Below the pieces are notes generated by a model. It saw only the letters and a program-made list of their open reading frames with translations. It was not told the DNA's origin and made no database searches. DNA of 64,000 bases from Georgenia ruanii (GTDB lineage: Bacteria; Actinomycetota; Actinomycetes; Actinomycetales; Actinomycetaceae): contig NZ_VUKE01000013.1 in assembly GCF_009193175.1 (NCBI RefSeq), positions 1 through 64,000 of the forward strand. Reading direction: 5' to 3'. Numbering within the stretch: the first letter of the stretch is position 1; each line of letters opens with the position of its first letter. The translations under genes and the position numbers were made by a program. Positions 53,717 through 62,817 of the stretch are shown piece after piece.

Positions 53717-54519
53717 CCACCTACGCCATCGTCCACGGGGCCGGGGGCAGCGGCTGGGACTGGCGCCTGGTGGCGGCCGAGCTGCAGGCCCGCGGGCACG
53801 ACGTCGTCGCGCCGGACCTGCCCTGCGAGGACGACGGCGCCGGGCTCGCGGCCTACACGGACACCGTCGTGCAGGCCGTGGAGCGCGCTGGGGTGGGCCG
53901 TGACCGCCTCGTGGTGGTCGGGCACTCGCTCGGCGGCTTCACCGCGCCCCACGTCGCCGCCCGCCTGGGCGCGGACCATCTCGCGCTGGCCGCCGCGATG
54001 GTGCCCCGCCCCGGGGAGACCGGGAGCGAGTGGTGGGAGGCCTCCGGGTACCAGGCCGCCATGCGGGCCATGAAGGCGGGCACCGAGGACGACACGCGTC
54101 GGCCCAGCGCCGCGACCGCCGACGGCGAGCCGGGAGCCGCGGCCGACGACGACGAGCCCGGCGCCGCGGCCGACGACGGCGAGCACCCGAGCCGCATCCA
54201 GGAGGCCGAGGGCGAGGCGTGGGTGGTCGAGACCTTCTTCCACGACGTCGAGCCGCACCTGGCCGCCGAGGCGCTGCGCCGCACCCGGAAGCAGACCATG
54301 ACCGTCATGACCGAGCCCTGGCCGCTGGCCGCGTGGCCCGACGTGGCGACCTCCTTCGTGCTCTTCCGCGACGACCGGTTCTTCCCCGCCGTCTTCCTCC
54401 GGGCGATGGTCCGCGAGCGCCTCGGTCTCACCGCCGCCGAGGTCCCCGGCGGCCACTGCGCCTACCTGTCTCAGCCCAAGGAGCTGGCCGGCTGGCTCGC
54501 CGCCGTGCCCTCCCGCTGA
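53713..54519 (+). CDS. Alpha/beta hydrolase
   Basis: A 268-residue hydrolase-fold protein. TTYAIVHGAGGSGWDW is the oxyanion-hole start, VVVGHSLGGFT holds the nucleophile Ser and GGHCAYLSQP the catalytic His. An insertion at about residues 122-165 is acidic and repetitive (two DGEPGAAADD-like units from a 27-bp duplication) and looks like a disordered loop in the cap region. The ATG overlaps the preceding frame's stop. Substrate unknown; resembles small-ester or salicylate-ester hydrolases of the HNL-like group. Confidence 0.85.
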   Translation: MTTYAIVHGAGGSGWDWRLVAAELQARGHDVVAPDLPCEDDGAGLAAYTDTVVQAVERAGVGRDRLVVVGHSLGGFTAPHVAARLGADHLALAAAMVPRPGETGSEWWEASGYQAAMRAMKAGTEDDTRRPSAATADGEPGAAADDDEPGAAADDGEHPSRIQEAEGEAWVVETFFHDVEPHLAAEALRRTRKQTMTVMTEPWPLAAWPDVATSFVLFRDDRFFPAVFLRAMVRERLGLTAAEVPGGHCAYLSQPKELAGWLAAVPSR

Positions 54520-54733
54520 GCCGCCGCCTCCCCCCGGCCGAGTCAGCGCCGCATCCCTTCCGGCTGCCCCGCCGCGGTGTCCTCCAGGTGAGAAGCCGAG
54601 CGGCCTGCCCACCCCCGCCGTGCCACATGGCGAGATTCCCCGCACCGCGCGCGACACCAGCCCTGTCAGCGACGACATGATCACCACCGATGCACGTCGC
54701 ACCCGGCGCCGTGCCCGGTGTCCGGAGGTGACC

Positions 54734-55558
54734 ATGACCGCCAGCGTGCTCACGCCCCCCGCGGCCCAGGAGCGCACCGCCGGCATGCGCGCCCTCGAGG
54801 TCCGCTTCGAGCGCGCCGGGAAGACCTTCCGCAGCGGCGGCGTCGACCGCACCGTCCTGGCCGACGTCTCCTTCGCCGTCGCCCCCGGCGAGGTCGTCGC
54901 GATCCTGGGCCCCAGCGGCTGCGGCAAGTCCACCCTCCTGCGCATCGCCGCCGGGCTGGAGACGGCGAGCGCCGGCGCCGTCCGCGTCGACGGCACGCCC
55001 GTGAGCGGGATCGACCCCCGCTGCGCCGTCGCCTTCCAGGAGCCGCGGCTGCTGCCGTGGCGCAACCTGCGCGACAACGTCGCCCTCGGCCTACCCCGCG
55101 GCACCGGGCGGCGGGCGGGCGGCGCCGTCGTCGACCGCCTCCTCGAGCTCGTCGGCCTCGCCGGCCACGCCGGCCACCGGCCGCGGGAGGTCTCCGGCGG
55201 CATGGCCCAGCGCGCCTCGCTGGCCCGGGCCCTGGCCCGCACCCCCGGCGTCCTGCTCCTGGACGAGCCGTTCGGCGCCCTCGACGCCCTCACGCGCCTA
55301 AAGATGCAGGACCTCCTCCTCGACGTCCACGCCGCCGAGCCCACCACGGTCCTGCTCGTCACCCACGACGTCGACGAGGCGCTCCAGCTCGCCGACCGCA
55401 TCCTCGTGCTGGGCCGTGAGGACGCCGCCGGACCGGCCGGCGTCCACTCCGTGGTCACCGTCCCCGGCGCCCGGCCGCGCGACCGTTCCTCGGCCGCCCT
55501 CGCCGCGCTGCGCGGCGACCTCCTCGCCGCCCTGGGCGTCGAGCGCGCCCACCACTGA
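54734..55558 (+). CDS. ssuB: ABC transporter ATPase, sulfonate/taurine type
   Basis: A 274-residue ATPase of the nitrate/sulfonate/taurine group. Walker A GPSGCGKST, Q-loop FQEPRLLPWRNL, signature VSGGMAQRASLARAL (the SGGM form is typical for SsuB/TauB), Walker B LLLDEPFGALD, His in VTHDVDEAL. It opens the seven-gene sulfur operon. CCGGAGGTGACC before the ATG at 54734 supports that start; a longer in-frame opening exists upstream. Confidence 0.88.
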   Translation: MTASVLTPPAAQERTAGMRALEVRFERAGKTFRSGGVDRTVLADVSFAVAPGEVVAILGPSGCGKSTLLRIAAGLETASAGAVRVDGTPVSGIDPRCAVAFQEPRLLPWRNLRDNVALGLPRGTGRRAGGAVVDRLLELVGLAGHAGHRPREVSGGMAQRASLARALARTPGVLLLDEPFGALDALTRLKMQDLLLDVHAAEPTTVLLVTHDVDEALQLADRILVLGREDAAGPAGVHSVVTVPGARPRDRSSAALAALRGDLLAALGVERAHH

Positions 55559-55649
55559 CCCCCACCGATCCCCCGACGGCGCCGCCCCGGCGCCGTCGAC
55601 CGCCGCGCGGTGCCACCGCCCGGCTCTCCCCCACCCGAAAGGCCCACCC

Positions 55650-56678
55650 GTGTCCCGCACCCGCACCGTGTCCGCCGTCGCCGCCCTCGCCGCCGTCGGC
55701 GCCATGATGGCGGGCTGCTCCGCCGGGGAGGACGCCAAGGCGTCCGGGACCACGACCAAGGCCCAGACCCTCGAGATCGACTACGCCACCTACAACCCGC
55801 TGTCCCTGGTCATCAAGGACAAGGGCTGGCTCGAGCAGGCGCTCGGCGAGGACGTCAAGGTCACCTGGGTCTTCTCGGCCGGCTCGAACAAGGCCAACGA
55901 GTCCTTGCGCGCCGGCGCCGTCGACGTCGGCTCCACCGCGGGCTCGGCGGCGCTGCTCGCCCGCTCGAACGGCAGCCCGATCCAGGTCATCGACCTGTTC
56001 TCGCAGCCGGAGTGGTCCGCGCTGGTCACCCGGCCGGACTCGGGCGTCGCCGGCGTCGACGACCTCGCCGGCAGGTCCGTCGCGGCCACCAAGGGCACCG
56101 ACCCCTACTTCGTGCTCCTGCAGGCCCTCGACGAGGCCGGCGTCGCCCCGGGCGACGTCACGGTGCAGAACCTCCAGCACGCCGACGGCCGCCGGGCCCT
56201 CGACAACGGCGACGTCGACGCCTGGGCGGGCCTCGACCCGATCATGGCCGACGCCGAGCGCGGCGGGGACGTGCTGTTCTACCGCAACGTCGACTTCAAC
56301 TCCTACGGCTTCCTCAACGCCACCGAGGACTTCCTGGAGAACCAGCCCGAGGTGGCCCAGACCGTCGTGGACGTCTACGAGTACGCCCGCCAGTGGGCGC
56401 TGGAGCACCCGGAGGAGACGGCGCAGATCCTCGCCACCGAGGCCGACATCGACCCGGAGGTCGCCACGGCGGTGCTTCAGCGGACCCACCTCGACATCGA
56501 CAACGTCCCGGGGCAGAAGCAGCTGGACGTCCTGCGCGGCATCGGCCCGTTCTTCGTCGCCAACGGCGACGTCAAGAACCAGGCACAGGTCGACGACGCC
56601 CTCGGCACCATCGTCCACGCCGACCTCGCCGAGCATGCCGACGCATCCCGGGTGGCCGGCGCGCTGGAGAAGCAGTGA
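55650..56678 (+). CDS. ssuA: ABC transporter substrate-binding lipoprotein, sulfonate type
   Basis: A 342-residue lipoprotein: signal helix and lipobox MMAGCS (Cys about 23). Fold of the SsuA/TauA group: LEIDYATYNPLSLVIKDKGWLEQAL (in part), SNKANESLRAGAVDVGSTAGSAAL, and GTDPYFVLLQALDEAG are characteristic. Binds an organosulfur compound at the cell surface and hands it to the permease. GAAAGG precedes the GTG. The stop overlaps the permease start (GTGA). The gap of about 90 bp after the ATPase gene contains a GGCGCCG-rich inverted stretch. Confidence 0.88.
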   Translation: MSRTRTVSAVAALAAVGAMMAGCSAGEDAKASGTTTKAQTLEIDYATYNPLSLVIKDKGWLEQALGEDVKVTWVFSAGSNKANESLRAGAVDVGSTAGSAALLARSNGSPIQVIDLFSQPEWSALVTRPDSGVAGVDDLAGRSVAATKGTDPYFVLLQALDEAGVAPGDVTVQNLQHADGRRALDNGDVDAWAGLDPIMADAERGGDVLFYRNVDFNSYGFLNATEDFLENQPEVAQTVVDVYEYARQWALEHPEETAQILATEADIDPEVATAVLQRTHLDIDNVPGQKQLDVLRGIGPFFVANGDVKNQAQVDDALGTIVHADLAEHADASRVAGALEKQ

Positions 56679-57592
56679 GCGCGGAGCCCCGCGAGACCGT
56701 CATCGCCGGCACCGGCAGCGGGTCCTACGCCACCGGCGCCGCGGTCGTCGCGGCCCCGGGCACCGGCCCGGCGGGCGAGGCGAGCGTGGCGGGCACGGGC
56801 GGGCCGGACGGCCCCGGCGCGGCGGACGCCGGACGCCGTCCGCGCCGCGGACCGGTCGCCCTGGCCGGGCTGCTCCTGCCGGTCGCGCTCGTCGCCGCCT
56901 GGCACGTGCTGTCCACCGCCGGGGTGTTCAGCGCCGTCGAGCTGCCCGCCCCGCTGCGGGTGCTCGAGGCCGGCGCCGATCTGCTCGCCCGCGGCGAGCT
57001 GTGGACCCACGTGCAGATCTCCACCCAGCGGGTGCTCCTCGGCTTCGCCATCGGCGGCTCGCTGGGCCTGGCCCTCGGGGCGCTGCTGGGCCTGTCCCGC
57101 TGGGCCGAGGTGCTGCTCGGCCCGACCGTCGGCGCGTTCCGCGCCGTCCCGTCGCTGGCGTGGGTGCCGCTGCTGCTGATCTGGATCGGCATCGGGGAGG
57201 ACTCCAAGGTCACCCTCGTGGCCATCGGCGCGTTCTTCCCGGTGTTCACCACCGTCTCGGGGGCCCTGCGCCACGTCGACCGCCACCTGGTCGAGGCCGG
57301 GCGGGCCTTCGGGCTGCGGGGGCTGTCCCTGCTCACCACGGTGCAGCTGCCCGCCGTCCTCCCCGCGATCATCTCGGGCCTGCGCCTGGCCCTGGCCCAG
57401 GGGTGGCTGTTCCTCGTGGCCGCCGAGCTCATCGCGGCGTCGATGGGCCTGGGCTTCCTCCTCACCGACTCCCAGAACAACGGCCGCACCGACCGCCTGC
57501 TCCTCGCGATCGTGCTGCTGGCCGTGCTCGGCAAGCTCTCCGACGCCGTCCTCGGCGTCTTCGAGCGCTGGGCGATCAAGAAGTGGGCGTGA
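56675..57592 (+). CDS. ssuC: ABC transporter permease, sulfonate type
   Basis: A 305-residue permease of the BPD family. After a Gly/Ala-rich 60-residue leader, six helices; EAA loop EAGRAFGLRGLSLLTTVQLPAVLPAI (in part). PSLAWVPLLLIWIGIGEDSK is the conserved SsuC/TauC segment. GTG overlaps the binding-protein stop; its own stop overlaps the acetyl-CoA synthetase start. Confidence 0.9.
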   Translation: MSAEPRETVIAGTGSGSYATGAAVVAAPGTGPAGEASVAGTGGPDGPGAADAGRRPRRGPVALAGLLLPVALVAAWHVLSTAGVFSAVELPAPLRVLEAGADLLARGELWTHVQISTQRVLLGFAIGGSLGLALGALLGLSRWAEVLLGPTVGAFRAVPSLAWVPLLLIWIGIGEDSKVTLVAIGAFFPVFTTVSGALRHVDRHLVEAGRAFGLRGLSLLTTVQLPAVLPAIISGLRLALAQGWLFLVAAELIAASMGLGFLLTDSQNNGRTDRLLLAIVLLAVLGKLSDAVLGVFERWAIKKWA

Positions 57593-59637
57593 CCGACACC
57601 ATGACAACCACCGCGACCGCACCCGCCCCCAACCCCGCCCTCGTCTCCGACGAGGCCCGCATCGACTTCTGGGCCCGCCAGGCCGGCCGCCTGGACTGGT
57701 CCACGCCCTGGCACACCACCCACCGCTGGCAGCCGCCAACCGCCGTCGGCACCGAGCCCGACGGCACGGTGCGCTGGAGCGTGCCGGAGATCGGCTGGTT
57801 CGAGGGCGGCACCCTCAACGTCGCCTACAACTGCGTCGACCGGCACGTCGAGGCCGGACGCGGCGACCACGTGGCCCTGTACGTCGAGGGCGAACCGGGC
57901 GACCGGCGCACCTACACCTACGCCGAGCTCCAGCGGGAGGTCGCCCGCGCCGCCAACGCCCTGCTCAGCCTGGGCGTGGAGGCGGGCGACCGGGTGGTCA
58001 TCTACCTGCCGGTGATCCCCGAGACCGTGATCGCGACCCTCGCCTGCGCCCGCATCGGCGCCGTCCACTCCCTGGTCTTCGGCGGCTTCTCCGCCGAGGC
58101 GCTGCGCTTCCGGGTCGAGGACACCGGCGCCAAGGTGCTGGTCACCACCGACGGGCAGTTCCGCCGCGGGGCCGCCGTGCCGGTCAAGGCCGCCGCGGAC
58201 GAGGCCGTCTCGGGCGACAACGCCATCGAGCACGTGCTCGTGGTGCGCCGCACCGGCGAGACGGACATCCCCTGGACTCCGGGCCGGGACCTCTGGTGGC
58301 ACGACGTCCTCGCCGGGCAGAGCGACGTCCACGTCCCGCAGCCCTTCGACGCCGAGGCGCCGCTGTTCATCATCTACACCTCCGGCACCACCGGGCGGCC
58401 CAAGGGACTGGTGCACACCATGGGCGGCTACCTCGTCCAGGCGGCCTACACCCACGCCCTGCTGTTCGACCTGCTGCCCGAGACGACAGGCGATGACGGT
58501 GTGGCCCGCCCCGACGAGCTCGCCGCCGTCAACGATCCGGTCAAGGTCGACCGCACCGTCCACTGGTGCACCGCCGACCTGGCCTGGGTCACCGCGCACA
58601 CCTACGAGATCTACGGGCCGCTGGCCAACGGCGTGTCGGAGGTCCTCTACGAGGGCACGCCGACCACCCCGCACCCGGGCCGGCACTTCGAGATCATCGA
58701 GCGCTACGGGGTGACGACCTACTACACCGCCCCCACGCTGGTGCGCTCGCTCATGGCCGCCTTCTTCGACGGCGTCCCTGCCACCTACGACCTCTCCTCC
58801 GTCCGCCTGCTCGGCTCCGTCGGCGAGGCGATCAACCCCGAGGCGTGGCGGTGGCTGCGGGCCCAGGTCGGCGCCGGCACCGCGCCCGTGGTGGACACCT
58901 GGTGGCAGTCCGAGACGGGGGCGACCATCCTCTCCCCGCGCCCCGGCGACGCCCAGTTCGACGACGGCGCCGCACCCAAGCCCGGTTGCGCCACCCGGCC
59001 GGTGCCCGGGGTGAGCGTGCGGGTGGTCGACGAGCACGGCGCCGCCGTCGCGCCCGGGGAGCACGGCCTCGCCGTCGTCGACAAGATCGGCCCGTCGATG
59101 GCCCGCACCGTGTGGGGCGACCCGCAGCGCTACCTCGACTCCTACTGGCGCGCCTTCGCCGCCCAGGGCTGGTTCCTCGCCGGCGACGGCGCGAAGGTCG
59201 ACGCCGACGGCGACATCTGGATCCTCGGCCGGGTCGACGACGTCATCAACGTCTCCGGCCACCGCCTGTCCACCATCGAGATCGAGTCCGCGCTCGTGGC
59301 CCACCCGTGGGTCGTCGAGGCGGGCGTCGCCCCGACGGCGGACGCGCGCACCGGGCACGCCATCACGGCGTTCGTCGTGCTGCACGACGGCGTGCCCCTC
59401 ACCGACGTCGCGCCCGCGCTGCGGGCCCACGTCAGCCGCGAGATCGGTCCCATCGCCAAGCCCGCGCACGTCGTGATCGTCCCGGACCTGCCCAAGACCC
59501 GGTCCGGGAAGATCATGCGCCGCCTCCTCACCCAGCTCTTCGAGGGCACCGAGCTGGGCGACACCACCTCCCTGCAGAACGCGCCCGCCATCCCTGCCAT
59601 CGCCGCGGCGGTGACCAGCTGGAAGGACAACTCATGA
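57589..59637 (+). CDS. acsA: Acetyl-CoA synthetase (AMP-forming)
   Basis: A 682-residue acyl-CoA synthetase of the Acs type. P-loop YTSGTTGRPKG (about residue 264), VHSLVFGGFSAEAL, TWWQSETG (with the Trp that restricts the pocket to acetate), GRVDDVINVSGHRLS and the C-terminal KTRSGKIMRR with the acetylatable Lys. It makes acetyl-CoA from acetate, ATP and CoA. The context is odd: it is coupled by GTGA to an ABC permease and by ATGA to a sulfone monooxygenase, and two genes later MetY releases acetate. This suggests recycling of that acetate. A start at 57601 is possible. Confidence 0.92.
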   Translation: MTDTMTTTATAPAPNPALVSDEARIDFWARQAGRLDWSTPWHTTHRWQPPTAVGTEPDGTVRWSVPEIGWFEGGTLNVAYNCVDRHVEAGRGDHVALYVEGEPGDRRTYTYAELQREVARAANALLSLGVEAGDRVVIYLPVIPETVIATLACARIGAVHSLVFGGFSAEALRFRVEDTGAKVLVTTDGQFRRGAAVPVKAAADEAVSGDNAIEHVLVVRRTGETDIPWTPGRDLWWHDVLAGQSDVHVPQPFDAEAPLFIIYTSGTTGRPKGLVHTMGGYLVQAAYTHALLFDLLPETTGDDGVARPDELAAVNDPVKVDRTVHWCTADLAWVTAHTYEIYGPLANGVSEVLYEGTPTTPHPGRHFEIIERYGVTTYYTAPTLVRSLMAAFFDGVPATYDLSSVRLLGSVGEAINPEAWRWLRAQVGAGTAPVVDTWWQSETGATILSPRPGDAQFDDGAAPKPGCATRPVPGVSVRVVDEHGAAVAPGEHGLAVVDKIGPSMARTVWGDPQRYLDSYWRAFAAQGWFLAGDGAKVDADGDIWILGRVDDVINVSGHRLSTIEIESALVAHPWVVEAGVAPTADARTGHAITAFVVLHDGVPLTDVAPALRAHVSREIGPIAKPAHVVIVPDLPKTRSGKIMRRLLTQLFEGTELGDTTSLQNAPAIPAIAAAVTSWKDNS

Positions 59638-60845
59638 GCACCATCGACTACGCGACCCCGCTGAAGTTCGCGTACTGGGTCCCCAACGTCTCGGGCGGCC
59701 TGGTCGTCTCCACCATCGAGCAGCGCACCAGCTGGGACTACGACTACAACGCCACCCTCGCCCGCATCGCCGAGGACAGCGGCTTCGAGTACGCCCTGAC
59801 CCAGACCCGCTACGCGGCGAGCTACGGCGCGGACAAGCAGCACGAGGCGACGAGCTTCTCCCTCGCGCTGCTGCTGGCCACCCAGCGGCTGAAGGTGATC
59901 GCCGCCGTCCACCCCGGGATGTGGCACCCCGGCGTGCTGGCGAAGTTCATCATCACCGCCGACCAGCTCTCGCACGGCCGCGCCGCGGTGAACATCGTCT
60001 CCGGCTGGCTCAAGGACGAGTTCACGGGCTTCGGGCTGCCCTGGCTCGAGCACGACGAGCGCTACGTGCGCACCGAGGAGTTCATCCGGGTGCTGCGCGG
60101 GCTGTGGACCGAAGCCGGCTACTCCCAGTCCGGGAAGTACTACGACATCACCGACTTCACCCTCAACCCGCCGCCGGTGGCCGTGCCGGGCCGGCCGCAC
60201 CCGGAGGTCTTCTTCGGCGGCAACTCCACCGCCGCGCAGCGTGCCGCCGGGCACGTCGCCGACTGGTACTTCTCCAACGGCCGCGACCTCGAGGGGTTCA
60301 AGGAGAACATCGCCGGGGTCACCCGGGCGGCCGCCGAGGCCGGCCGGCACCCGCGCTTCGGCCTCAACGGCTTCGTCATCGCCCGCGACAGCGAGCGCGA
60401 GGCGCGCGAGACGCTGCGCGAGATCGTCGCCAAGGCGCACCGCCCCGCCGTCGAGGGCTTCGCTGCCGCCGTGAAGGAGGCCGGCCAGTCCACGAAGGAC
60501 GGCAAGGGCATGTGGGAGGACTCGACCTTCGAGGACCTCGTGCAGTACAACGACGGCTTCCGCACCCAGCTCATCGGCACCCCGGAGCAGATCGCCGAGC
60601 GGATCGTGGCCTACAAGGCGATCGGGGTGAACCTCTTCCTCACCTGCTACCTACACTTCCAGGAGGAGATCGTCGCGTTCGGCCGCGACGTCCTGCCGAT
60701 CGTCCGCGAGCTCGAGGCCGACCTGGCCCGCAAGCACGGCACCGAGCTCGACACCGGCCTGCTGCCCGCCGTCGACCTCGACCGCGCCGCGGCGGCCGTG
60801 ACCACAACCACACCCGCCCCGACCCTCACGGAGGTGAGCGCCTGA
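59634..60845 (+). CDS. sfnG: SfnG-like dimethyl sulfone monooxygenase (LLM class)
   Basis: A 403-residue FMN-dependent monooxygenase. The start LKFAYWVPNVSGGLVVSTIEQRT, then FEYALTQTRYAASYGAD, LLLATQRLKVIAAVHPGMWHPG, VNIVSGWLKDEFTGFG and WYFSNGRDL match SfnG, which oxidises dimethyl sulfone to methanesulfinate and formaldehyde with reduced FMN. Compared with typical SfnG (about 365 residues) it has a Thr/Ala-rich C-terminal tail. Coupled by ATGA to the preceding gene and TGATG to metY. A flavin reductase for FMNH2 is not in the operon. Family close to SsuD, so alkanesulfonates remain possible. Confidence 0.85.
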   Translation: MSTIDYATPLKFAYWVPNVSGGLVVSTIEQRTSWDYDYNATLARIAEDSGFEYALTQTRYAASYGADKQHEATSFSLALLLATQRLKVIAAVHPGMWHPGVLAKFIITADQLSHGRAAVNIVSGWLKDEFTGFGLPWLEHDERYVRTEEFIRVLRGLWTEAGYSQSGKYYDITDFTLNPPPVAVPGRPHPEVFFGGNSTAAQRAAGHVADWYFSNGRDLEGFKENIAGVTRAAAEAGRHPRFGLNGFVIARDSEREARETLREIVAKAHRPAVEGFAAAVKEAGQSTKDGKGMWEDSTFEDLVQYNDGFRTQLIGTPEQIAERIVAYKAIGVNLFLTCYLHFQEEIVAFGRDVLPIVRELEADLARKHGTELDTGLLPAVDLDRAAAAVTTTTPAPTLTEVSA

Positions 60846-62323
60846 TGAGTGAGCACCAGTTCGGGTTCCGCACCCGCGCCCTGCACGCCGGCGGCACGCC
60901 CGACGCCGAGCACGGCGCCCGGGCGGTGCCCATCTACCAGTCGACGTCGTTCGTGTTCAACAACGCCGACGACGCCGCGAACCTCTTCGCGCTGCAGAAG
61001 TACGGCAACATCTACTCGCGCATCTCCAACCCCACGGTCGCCGCGCTCGAGGAGCGGGTGGCCTCGCTGGAGGGCGGCATCGGGGCGGTGGCGACGTCGT
61101 CGGGCATGGCCGCGGAGTTCATCACCTTCGCCGCGCTGGTGCAGGCCGGCGACCACATCGTCGCCTCGGCCCAGCTCTACGGCGGCACGGTGACCCAGCT
61201 GGACGTGACGCTGCGCCGCTTCGGGGTGGAGACGACGTTCGTGGCCGGGACCGACCCGGCCGACTTCGCCGCCGCGCTGCGCCCGGAGACGAAGGCGATC
61301 TACACCGAGATCGTCGCCAACCCGTCCGGGGAGGTCGCCGACCTCGCGGGGCTGGCCGCCGTCGCCCACGGGGCGGGCGTCCCGCTCGTCGTCGACGCCA
61401 CCTTGTCGACGCCGTACCTCATCCGCCCGTTCGAGCACGGCGCGGACATCGTCATCCACTCGGCCACGAAGTTCCTCGGCGGGCACGGCACCACCCTGGG
61501 CGGCGTCGTCGTCGAGTCCGGCCGGTTCGACTGGGGCAACGGCAACTTCCCCACCATGACCGAGCCGGTGCCCTCCTACGGCAACATCTCCTGGTGGGGG
61601 AACTTCGGCGAGTACGGCTTCCTCACCAAGCTGCGCTCGGAGCAGCTGCGCGACATCGGGCCCTCGCTCTCCCCGCAGGCGGCGTTCCAGCTGCTGCAGG
61701 GCATCGAGACCCTCCCCCAGCGCATGGACGCCCACCTGGCCAACGCGGCCGAGGTGGCGGCCTGGCTCGACGCCGACCCGCGCGTGGCCTACGTCAACTA
61801 CGCCGGGCTGCCCGGGCACCCGCACCACGAGCGGGCCCGCAGGTATCTGCCGCTGGGCGCCGGGTCGGTCTTCGCCTTCGGCGTGGCCGCGCCCGACGGC
61901 CAGGACGCGCGGGCCGTGGGCGAGCGGTTCATCGAGTCGCTGCAGCTGGCCAGCCACCTGGCCAACGTCGGGGACGCCAAGACCCTCGTGCTGCACCCGG
62001 CCTCGACCACGCACCGGCAGCTGAGCGCCGAGCAGCTGGACGCCGCCGGGGTGCGCGGGGACCTCATCCGGCTCTCCGTCGGGCTCGAGGACCTCGAGGA
62101 CATCCTGTGGGACCTCGACCAGGCACTGACCCGGGCCACCGGACGCACCCGCGAGGGCGCGCCGGCCGACGTCGTCGCCGACTGGGACGACGCGGGGCCG
62201 GCGGGGGCTGCCGGGGAGCCGGCGGGTGTCGCGGTGCCCGTCGAGGCCGCGTCCGTCCAGGCGGGCGCCGCGTCCATCCAGGCGGGCGCCGCCTGCACCA
62301 TCGGAGAAGGAGCCCGCGCATGA
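60845..62323 (+). CDS. metY: O-acetylhomoserine sulfhydrylase (aminocarboxypropyltransferase)
   Basis: A 492-residue PLP enzyme of the Cys/Met metabolism family. GFRTRALHAGGTPDAEHGARAVPIYQS by pieces is the typical MetY start; PLP Lys is in HSATKFLGGHGTT (about residue 205), with YSRISNPT and SSGMAAEF upstream. It condenses O-acetyl-L-homoserine with sulfide to homocysteine and acetate. The last 55 residues are an extra Ala-rich tail with a duplicated QAGAASIQAGAA-like stretch. Coupled to sfnG (TGATG) and to the CoA-binding gene (ATGA). metX is not in the window. Confidence 0.93.
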   Translation: MSEHQFGFRTRALHAGGTPDAEHGARAVPIYQSTSFVFNNADDAANLFALQKYGNIYSRISNPTVAALEERVASLEGGIGAVATSSGMAAEFITFAALVQAGDHIVASAQLYGGTVTQLDVTLRRFGVETTFVAGTDPADFAAALRPETKAIYTEIVANPSGEVADLAGLAAVAHGAGVPLVVDATLSTPYLIRPFEHGADIVIHSATKFLGGHGTTLGGVVVESGRFDWGNGNFPTMTEPVPSYGNISWWGNFGEYGFLTKLRSEQLRDIGPSLSPQAAFQLLQGIETLPQRMDAHLANAAEVAAWLDADPRVAYVNYAGLPGHPHHERARRYLPLGAGSVFAFGVAAPDGQDARAVGERFIESLQLASHLANVGDAKTLVLHPASTTHRQLSAEQLDAAGVRGDLIRLSVGLEDLEDILWDLDQALTRATGRTREGAPADVVADWDDAGPAGAAGEPAGVAVPVEAASVQAGAASIQAGAACTIGEGARA

Positions 62324-62817
62324 CCGCCACCGCCGAACGCACCTGGGTGGGGCCCTCCGCCCCCGAACGGCTCGCCATCCTGCGCCGCACCCGCTCGATC
62401 GCGATCGTCGGGGCGTCGGACAAGCCCTCCCGGGCGTCGTACTTCGTGGCGACCTACCTGCTCTCCTCCACGCCGTACCGGGTGTACTTCGTCAACCCGG
62501 TCGCCAAGGAGATCCTGGGACAGCCCGTCTACCCCTCGCTGGCGGACCTGCCCGAGGCGCCCGACCTCGTCGACGTCTTCCGCCGCCACGACGACCTGCC
62601 GCAGGTGCTCGAGGAGACCATCGCCGCCGGGGCCAAGACGTTGTGGCTGCAGCTGGGGTCCTGGCACGAGGACGTCGCCCGCGGCGGCGAGGCGGCCGGC
62701 CTGGAGGTGGTCATGGACCGCTGCGTGAAGATCGAGCACGCCCGCTTCCACGGCGGGCTGCACCTGGCGGGCTTCAACACCGGGGTGATCTCCTCGCGGC
62801 GCCAGGTGCGCGCCTGA
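62320..62817 (+). CDS. CoA-binding domain protein
   Basis: A 165-residue single-domain Rossmann protein of the CoA_binding_2 family (succinyl-CoA synthetase alpha-like). RTRSIAIVGASDKPSRASYFVATYL is the nucleotide loop; PVYPSLADLPEAPDLVDVFRRHDDLP and the end with VVMDRCVKIEHARF are family features. It is the last gene of the sulfur operon and starts inside the metY stop (ATGA). Members are small CoA-binding proteins without catalytic subunits. A link with the acetyl-CoA made by the operon's synthetase is tempting but unproven. Relatives often lie next to metY in actinobacteria. Confidence 0.9.
   Translation: MTATAERTWVGPSAPERLAILRRTRSIAIVGASDKPSRASYFVATYLLSSTPYRVYFVNPVAKEILGQPVYPSLADLPEAPDLVDVFRRHDDLPQVLEETIAAGAKTLWLQLGSWHEDVARGGEAAGLEVVMDRCVKIEHARFHGGLHLAGFNTGVISSRRQVRA

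Follow-up and report, generated by a model that had tools for sequence, protein, structure and literature searches.

A distinct acetyl-CoA synthetase accompanies O-acetylhomoserine sulfhydrylase in an organosulfur operon of Georgenia ruanii and its relatives and may re-activate acetate

The window considered here, a stretch of 64,000 nucleotides of the actinobacterium Georgenia ruanii (assembly GCF_009193175.1, contig NZ_VUKE01000013.1), carries at 54734–62817 an operon of seven open, co-directional genes in the order ssuB-ssuA-ssuC-acs-sfnG-metY-CoA_binding_2 (Table 1), in which an acetyl-coenzyme A (acetyl-CoA) synthetase, Acs, stands among genes of sulfur acquisition. At five of the six junctions the neighbouring genes share 1 or 4 bases, and the sole gap, of 91 bases, lies between ssuB and ssuA; the ssuB-type gene is an optional member of the operon in relatives. 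The first-pass annotation, made from the sequence of this DNA alone, had described such an operon at the same positions, and its layout was confirmed. The identities that it proposed for Acs, SfnG, MetY and the SsuA family are supported by scores over curated cut-offs, the CoA-binding domain by its match to PF13380, and the motif TWWQSETG is indeed present in Acs. The best matches of ssuB and ssuC are models of sulfonate importers, yet both genes score below the equivalog cut-offs of those models. SfnG matches the structure 8t0u, a dimethylsulfone monooxygenase dependent on reduced flavin mononucleotide (FMNH2), with E 7e-130. The same gene order is kept in other genomes, which makes a chance arrangement very unlikely.

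Table 1. Features of the operon in the window and of related loci (gene coordinates include the stop codon; start codons are the analysts' choice)
Feature	Position or locus	Strand	Evidence
ssuB-type ATP-binding cassette (ABC) ATPase, sulfonate-type importer	54734–55558	+	NF008420, 203 bits, below cut-off 395
ssuA-type substrate-binding lipoprotein	55650 (GTG)–56678	+	TIGR01728, 210 bits, cut-off 163.5
ssuC-type permease	56675 (GTG)–57592	+	NF008470, 205 bits, below cut-off 347
acs, second (operon-type, 'type-O') acetyl-CoA synthetase	57589 (GTG)–59637	+	TIGR02188, 764.1 bits, cut-off 724.95
sfnG-type FMN monooxygenase	59634–60845	+	TIGR04021, 614.4 bits, cut-off 382.95
metY, O-acetylhomoserine sulfhydrylase, second copy in the genome	60845–62323	+	TIGR01326, 572 bits, cut-off 495
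Stand-alone CoA_binding_2 gene after metY	62320–62817	+	PF13380, 139 bits, cut-off 23
Operon leader	54520–54733	+	No Rfam match, no S-adenosylmethionine (SAM) riboswitch, unlike many relatives
Divergent sfnG, no acs or metY nearby	L130–L137, L139, L142, L144–L148, L151		SAM-I match upstream

The link between acs and metY extends far beyond this strain. It was followed in the best 80 of 160 SfnG loci encoding a relative, hereafter the named loci, which come mostly from Arthrobacter and its kin, include two from Georgenia and one from Brachybacterium, and do not give independent counts. A relative of the operon Acs, counted if it had at least 150 residues and more than 300 bits, is found in 74 of these 80 loci, metY in 79 and the CoA-binding gene also in 79. 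In 50 of the 80, acs lies no more than 1.6 kb before metY, and in 50 it is within 300 bases of sfnG; the ssuBAC genes are directly upstream of acs in 30 of the 74 loci that have it. The six loci lacking a counted acs comprise four with none in the stretch (L027, L031, L042, L057) and two with only its tail at the end of a contig (L086, L095).

A broader sample of the order consisted of 297 genomes, 49 of them with SfnG at E 1e-90 or better; neighbourhoods were taken from 47 of the 48 besides that of the window (G051, on a contig of 4 kb, was omitted), with two further genomes of the same genus. Open reading frames were called crudely, and in several loci the sequence stops not far from the gene (e.g., L121, L137, L140, L150). 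In 16 of the 47 loci (L105–L119, L149) metY and the CoA-binding gene stand beside sfnG, and acs is present in 15 of them, in L112 only as its end about 9 kb away. The locus without acs, L149 (genome G322), looks like a decaying copy, in which sfnG is split into two frames and ssuBAC, metY and the CoA-binding gene remain. The other 31 loci (L120–L148, L150, L151) show neither acs nor metY within stretches some of which are short. Their SfnG is divergent, 53–79% identical to that of the window, and identity alone is no clean divider, as L120, at 79%, falls in the range of SfnG from the module. Some of these 31 genomes (G200, G109, G042) have an acs-metY locus elsewhere.

The pair can also be found without sfnG. 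A search for the CoA-binding protein in a class sample of 394 genomes gave matches in 58, and metY directly precedes the CoA-binding gene in 28 of 40 neighbourhoods examined. Four of the 28 have acs before metY and are devoid of sfnG (L159, L161, L162, L179), and 24 have no acs. Three further acs-metY-CoA_binding loci without an adjoining sfnG (L229, L235, L237) came from an Acs search in 45 genomes, hand-picked on the basis of earlier matches. Together these seven loci span the family codes f5, f6, f7, f13 and f19, i.e., other or overlapping families, and two of them, L235 and L179, have neither importer nor sfnG adjoining. In the 45 chosen genomes an operon-type MetY (at least 65% identity) was found in all 32 that encode the operon type of Acs and in 8 that do not. 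No housekeeping acs of this set lies within 50 kb of any metY, as read by eye from coordinates; 29 of the 30 housekeeping neighbourhoods had short flanks.

Since acs and metY stay together where sfnG is missing, and 31 divergent sfnG genes have no acs beside them, the companion of acs is metY, and in places ssuBAC as well, rather than sfnG. A chance association was thus rejected, as was a peculiarity of a single strain, which the first-pass annotation had named as a possible refutation, and so was the idea that sfnG is the main partner of acs.

The operon enzyme, for which we coined the label type-O, is a separate kind of Acs. In a tree of 56 rows built by a quick method from 36 of the 99 type-O sequences and 20 of the 30 housekeeping ones, a branch with support 100 separates the type-O proteins from all others. 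The same G. ruanii genome (G000) encodes a housekeeping paralogue (contig C8, about 69.9–71.6 kb, L154) 53% identical to the window Acs, and housekeeping enzymes in general are 50–54% identical to it. Among the matches listed for the class sample, all Acs with at least 64% identity belong to the same order. Five loci that duplicate named records (L108, L110, L111, L152, L153) were excluded from the tree input and from the counts of methionine and cysteine given below.

By its sequence this synthetase is predicted to be of the acetate type, as had been proposed. Residues V310, T311, V386 and W414 (Salmonella numbering), which hold acetate in the pocket of Acs, were mapped by alignment with Salmonella-type Acs chains of PDB and are kept in 99, 98, 98 and 98 of the 99 type-O sequences, respectively. 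W414 by itself does not decide which acid is used; the scores of the propionate--CoA ligase (PrpE) models add to it, being far below their cut-offs for the window Acs (TIGR02316, 445 vs. 827 bits; NF007815, 486 vs. 955 bits), and a PrpE-like identity was rejected. Housekeeping AcsA shares T311, V386, W414 and the acetylation lysine with type-O and has V310 in 19 of 30 sequences and isoleucine in 11. It differs from type-O in its clade, in the absence of a SAM riboswitch and in a higher content of methionine: over 610 core columns, the mean is 4.7 methionines in type-O vs. 10.5 in the 30 housekeeping Acs, and the window Acs has 4 vs. 12 in its own paralogue. Cysteine shows the opposite trend (4.9 vs. 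3.0). The low content of methionine marks the whole type-O clade, including copies away from metY.

The regulation of acs in relatives provides evidence that the first-pass annotation did not have, because a SAM riboswitch of the kind that stands at sulfur genes often heads acs there. In loci where the genes are split into several units, Rfam names the SAM-I riboswitch RF00162 before acs, ssuB and sfnG, and these leaders share the S-box sequence. Immediately upstream of acs, matches above the RF00162 gathering score were obtained in L035, L039, L080, L091 and L238. Further matches were given by a SAM-I model of our own, R1, built from 12 Rfam matches in four split-unit loci, with L048, L228 and L238 among the sources, and leaning to loci of that kind; it gave 107 matches in one set of 81 sources and 42 in another of 100. 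It alone finds, at 71–85 bits, the acs leaders of L041, L073, L083, L088, L092 and L228, which are below the Rfam threshold. According to R1, 56 of the 71 evaluable acs units in the named loci (74 minus three that start outside the locus) are headed by a SAM-I riboswitch, namely 28 of the 30 in which ssuB comes first and 28 of the 41 in which acs does, L074 among the latter with only 39 bits. It also heads 28 of the 30 units counted as sfnG-led; in one of the two exceptions, L095, the end of acs lies shortly before sfnG, and the unit does not really begin with sfnG. For the 30 housekeeping acs genes R1 gave no match of at least 39 bits (L259 reaches 16.9 bits, E 0.036). Upstream of the units in L229 and L237 neither Rfam nor R1 gave a match.

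A new leader RNA was considered for the Paenarthrobacter-like loci, but inspection by eye suggests that several of their acs leaders are decayed remnants of the S-box. The leaders of L055, L058, L060, L067 and L084 contain GAATATTCTGC / GAATATTACGC-like motifs upstream of the decayed-looking riboswitch, and these could be a candidate protein operator. An alignment of three sequences before the Georgenia operon gave nothing firm in the way of conserved operators. In L228, L039, L080 and L091 a SAM-IV riboswitch was observed on the opposite strand, back to back with the SAM-I riboswitch heading ssuB or acs.

In the MetY reaction O-acetylhomoserine loses its acetyl group as acetate. The substrate can be made in G. 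ruanii, as the genome has a metX gene (G000, contig C20; NF047917, 496.8 bits over 475; NF001209, 440 over 331; below the TIGR01392 cut-off, 426 vs. 500 bits), beside which the metY paralogue, 51% identical to the operon copy, is located; MetY will therefore release acetate. Linkage, clade, pocket and SAM control taken together make re-activation of this acetate the simplest explanation of the operon Acs, and in our opinion it is probable, although far from certain, that the enzyme belongs to a methionine and sulfur regulon and serves this purpose. MetX would spend acetyl-CoA on O-acetylhomoserine, MetY would exchange the acetyl group for a reduced sulfur compound with the release of acetate, and Acs, using ATP and CoA, would re-activate the acetate and refill the acetyl-CoA pool for MetX. 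MetY-derived acetate would then be the physiological substrate of type-O Acs, and carbon would flow back to MetX; the CoA-binding protein may have some role in this cycle. The importer and SfnG would be optional parts for sulfur acquisition, attached to an acs-metY-CoA_binding core.

Several observations weigh against acetate re-activation. The window itself has no SAM riboswitch: it was looked for with Rfam and R1 and not found, with no RF00162 match over the gathering score and none up to E 1 in 54200–55000. Among the evaluable named units 15 of 71 have none (both Georgenia, the Brachybacterium and 12 others), as do 21 of the 29 units outside the named set, and three of the eight that have one there duplicate named records. 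Of the 31 divergent sfnG genes that have no acs, 16 also show a SAM-I match close upstream, so that SAM control marks a sulfur regulon, not acetate recycling as such. In L231 and L234 acs stands beside ssuBAC with metY elsewhere, and in L228 (genome G090) acs is near ssuBAC and metY lies on the opposite strand at a distance of about 12.6 kb, from which it follows that acs is tied to the importer too. In L230, L232, L233 and L236 (G055, G206, G169 and G110) neither metY nor ssuBAC adjoins type-O acs. Finally, by our reading 31 of the 32 genomes with type-O Acs also have a housekeeping Acs. Two of the loci just mentioned, L232 (8772–9863) and L236, belong to family code f14, and in L232 type-O acs is divergent from a gene of an NtaA/DmoA-like monooxygenase (199 bits, below the cut-off of 280).

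The difference in methionine content allows another explanation, in which a sulfur-starved cell replaces the methionine-rich housekeeping Acs by a methionine-poor isozyme, and the link to metY reflects shared regulation only. Sulfur-poor enzymes are indeed reported for sulfate-starved Rhodococcus grown on dibenzothiophene (PMC8557817). However, the higher cysteine content of type-O reduces the net saving to about 4 sulfur atoms per chain, the low methionine is clade-wide and not limited to copies near metY, and in G090 type-O is the only Acs at E 1e-60; we regard sulfur sparing as unlikely. The pairs of ssuBAC and acs without metY, as in L231 and L234, are the best evidence for a different function, namely that the synthetase makes a CoA thioester of an acid imported by SsuABC or formed by the monooxygenase, and the position of ssuBAC directly before acs in the 30 named loci agrees with it. 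Against such an activation of the substrate speak the all but invariant residues of the acetate pocket, the 44 of 74 named loci in which ssuBAC does not adjoin acs (lie within 300 bases of it), and the acs-metY-CoA_binding loci L235 and L179, to which neither importer nor sfnG is attached, and it seems rather improbable to us.

A spare acs might also be useful whenever methionine is made, as a general supply of acetyl-CoA with no specific use of MetY acetate. By our own estimate the flux of this acetate would be small beside central metabolism, and nearly all genomes with type-O have another Acs, as mentioned above. Nevertheless, a single clade keeps close to metY or ssuBAC across several families and is often SAM-controlled, and housekeeping copies show neither property; we therefore consider general supply very doubtful, and re-activation of MetY-released acetate remains our preferred explanation.

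The origin of the reduced sulfur has to be reconsidered. The first-pass annotation had supposed that an imported sulfur source could be oxidized and sulfide fixed to homocysteine, and the route through sulfite proved incomplete in this genome. PF01077, the domain of sulfite or nitrite reductases, has no match in it, and 11 of 14 control genomes have one. Of the nine genomes that the sample has of this genus, six were searched (G000, G001, G002, G003, G005, G008), and the domain is absent from all of them. The assembly to which the window belongs has a completeness rating of 97.3%; an assembly gap, possible for one genome, is an unlikely cause for six. Among these sulfite-reductase-less genomes G000 and G002 carry the sulfonate-type importer and SfnG, and G008 carries SfnG. 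The best match to the alkanesulfonate monooxygenase model TIGR03565 other than SfnG has 135 bits vs. a cut-off of 518, which only 2 of the 14 controls pass; MsuC was not searched. There are 26 genomes in which acs and metY share a neighbourhood (up to about 13 kb, G090 being the farthest), and 19 of them show no Sir-type sulfite reductase: 13 have no PF01077 match at all, and six have a single match in a frame of about 880–1190 residues, which we take for a nitrite reductase. It may be speculated, with little expectation of being right, that in such Actinomycetales the SAM-regulon cycle of MetX, MetY and Acs, perhaps tuned by the CoA-binding protein, traps sulfide or methanethiol derived from organosulfur compounds and bypasses sulfite, and that the SfnG-clade monooxygenase of the module serves the release of a thiol and not oxidation to sulfite.

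Some known systems resemble the operon in part. The dimethyl sulfone pathway of Pseudomonas and Acinetobacter with SfnG, MsuC and MsuD-SsuD (PMC13352529) has a monooxygenase of the same SfnG family (TIGR04021, 614 bits here), and metY is not named in the accessible part of its text; in the present genome neither an alkanesulfonate monooxygenase over the cut-off nor a sulfite reductase was found (MsuC was not searched). The TetR-LLM-SfnG-SfnB region of Gordonia (PMC9861168) is likewise a sulfur-acquisition cluster with an actinobacterial sfnG, but its gene set is different, and the terms acetyl-CoA, sulfhydrylase, CoA-binding and synthetase are absent from the portion of text available. In Rhodococcus qingshengii IGTS8, direct sulfhydrylation on dibenzothiophene depends on MetY, which is sulfur-poor and is more abundant with an organosulfur source; SfnG is termed highly abundant, SsuA and SsuB are in its table, and the main text, as far as accessible, mentions neither acetyl-CoA nor acetate (PMC8557817). 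SAM riboswitches before methionine and sulfur genes are familiar from the study of SAM-I (S-box) regulons, where the Actinobacteria of the table are Corynebacteriaceae and Mycobacteriaceae only, and acetyl-CoA, metY and acs do not occur in the accessible main text (PMC3766115). A literature search, to which most subscription papers were out of reach, found no description of the module, no paper joining sfnG, acetyl-CoA synthetase and O-acetylhomoserine and none joining acetyl-CoA synthetase to a SAM riboswitch, which speaks only weakly for novelty.

Direct sulfhydrylation costs one acetyl-CoA per sulfur fixed and discards acetate, the fate of which, to our knowledge, is rarely considered. A distinct clade of Acs tied to metY or a sulfonate-type importer and often controlled by SAM suggests that the recovery of acetate is a part of methionine synthesis in some bacteria. 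In many soil actinobacteria a second acetate-activating enzyme is encoded near the acetate-releasing, sulfur-fixing one, which suggests a built-in recovery loop. A gene that curated models name just 'acetate--CoA ligase' is in this way assigned a function open to testing, with a bearing on the engineering of methionine and O-acetylhomoserine production. As many carriers show no sulfite reductase, it may be asked from which sulfur compound their MetY is supplied.

Some minor observations were also made. About 460 bases downstream of the operon of Georgenia thermotolerans a Ku protein (TIGR02772; L025, 13707–14819), not a sulfur gene, is encoded. Records titled Vibrio cholerae (L040, WNZI01000008.1) and Sporosarcina (L059, NZ_JADHDY010000018.1) contain an Arthrobacter-type locus and are probably mislabelled or contaminated. 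The pair of metY and a stand-alone CoA_binding_2 gene has a wider distribution than the acs module (L163–L168, L172–L178, L187, L189, L190, L192–L195) and was met even in genomes of about 1.3–1.5 Mb (family code f44).

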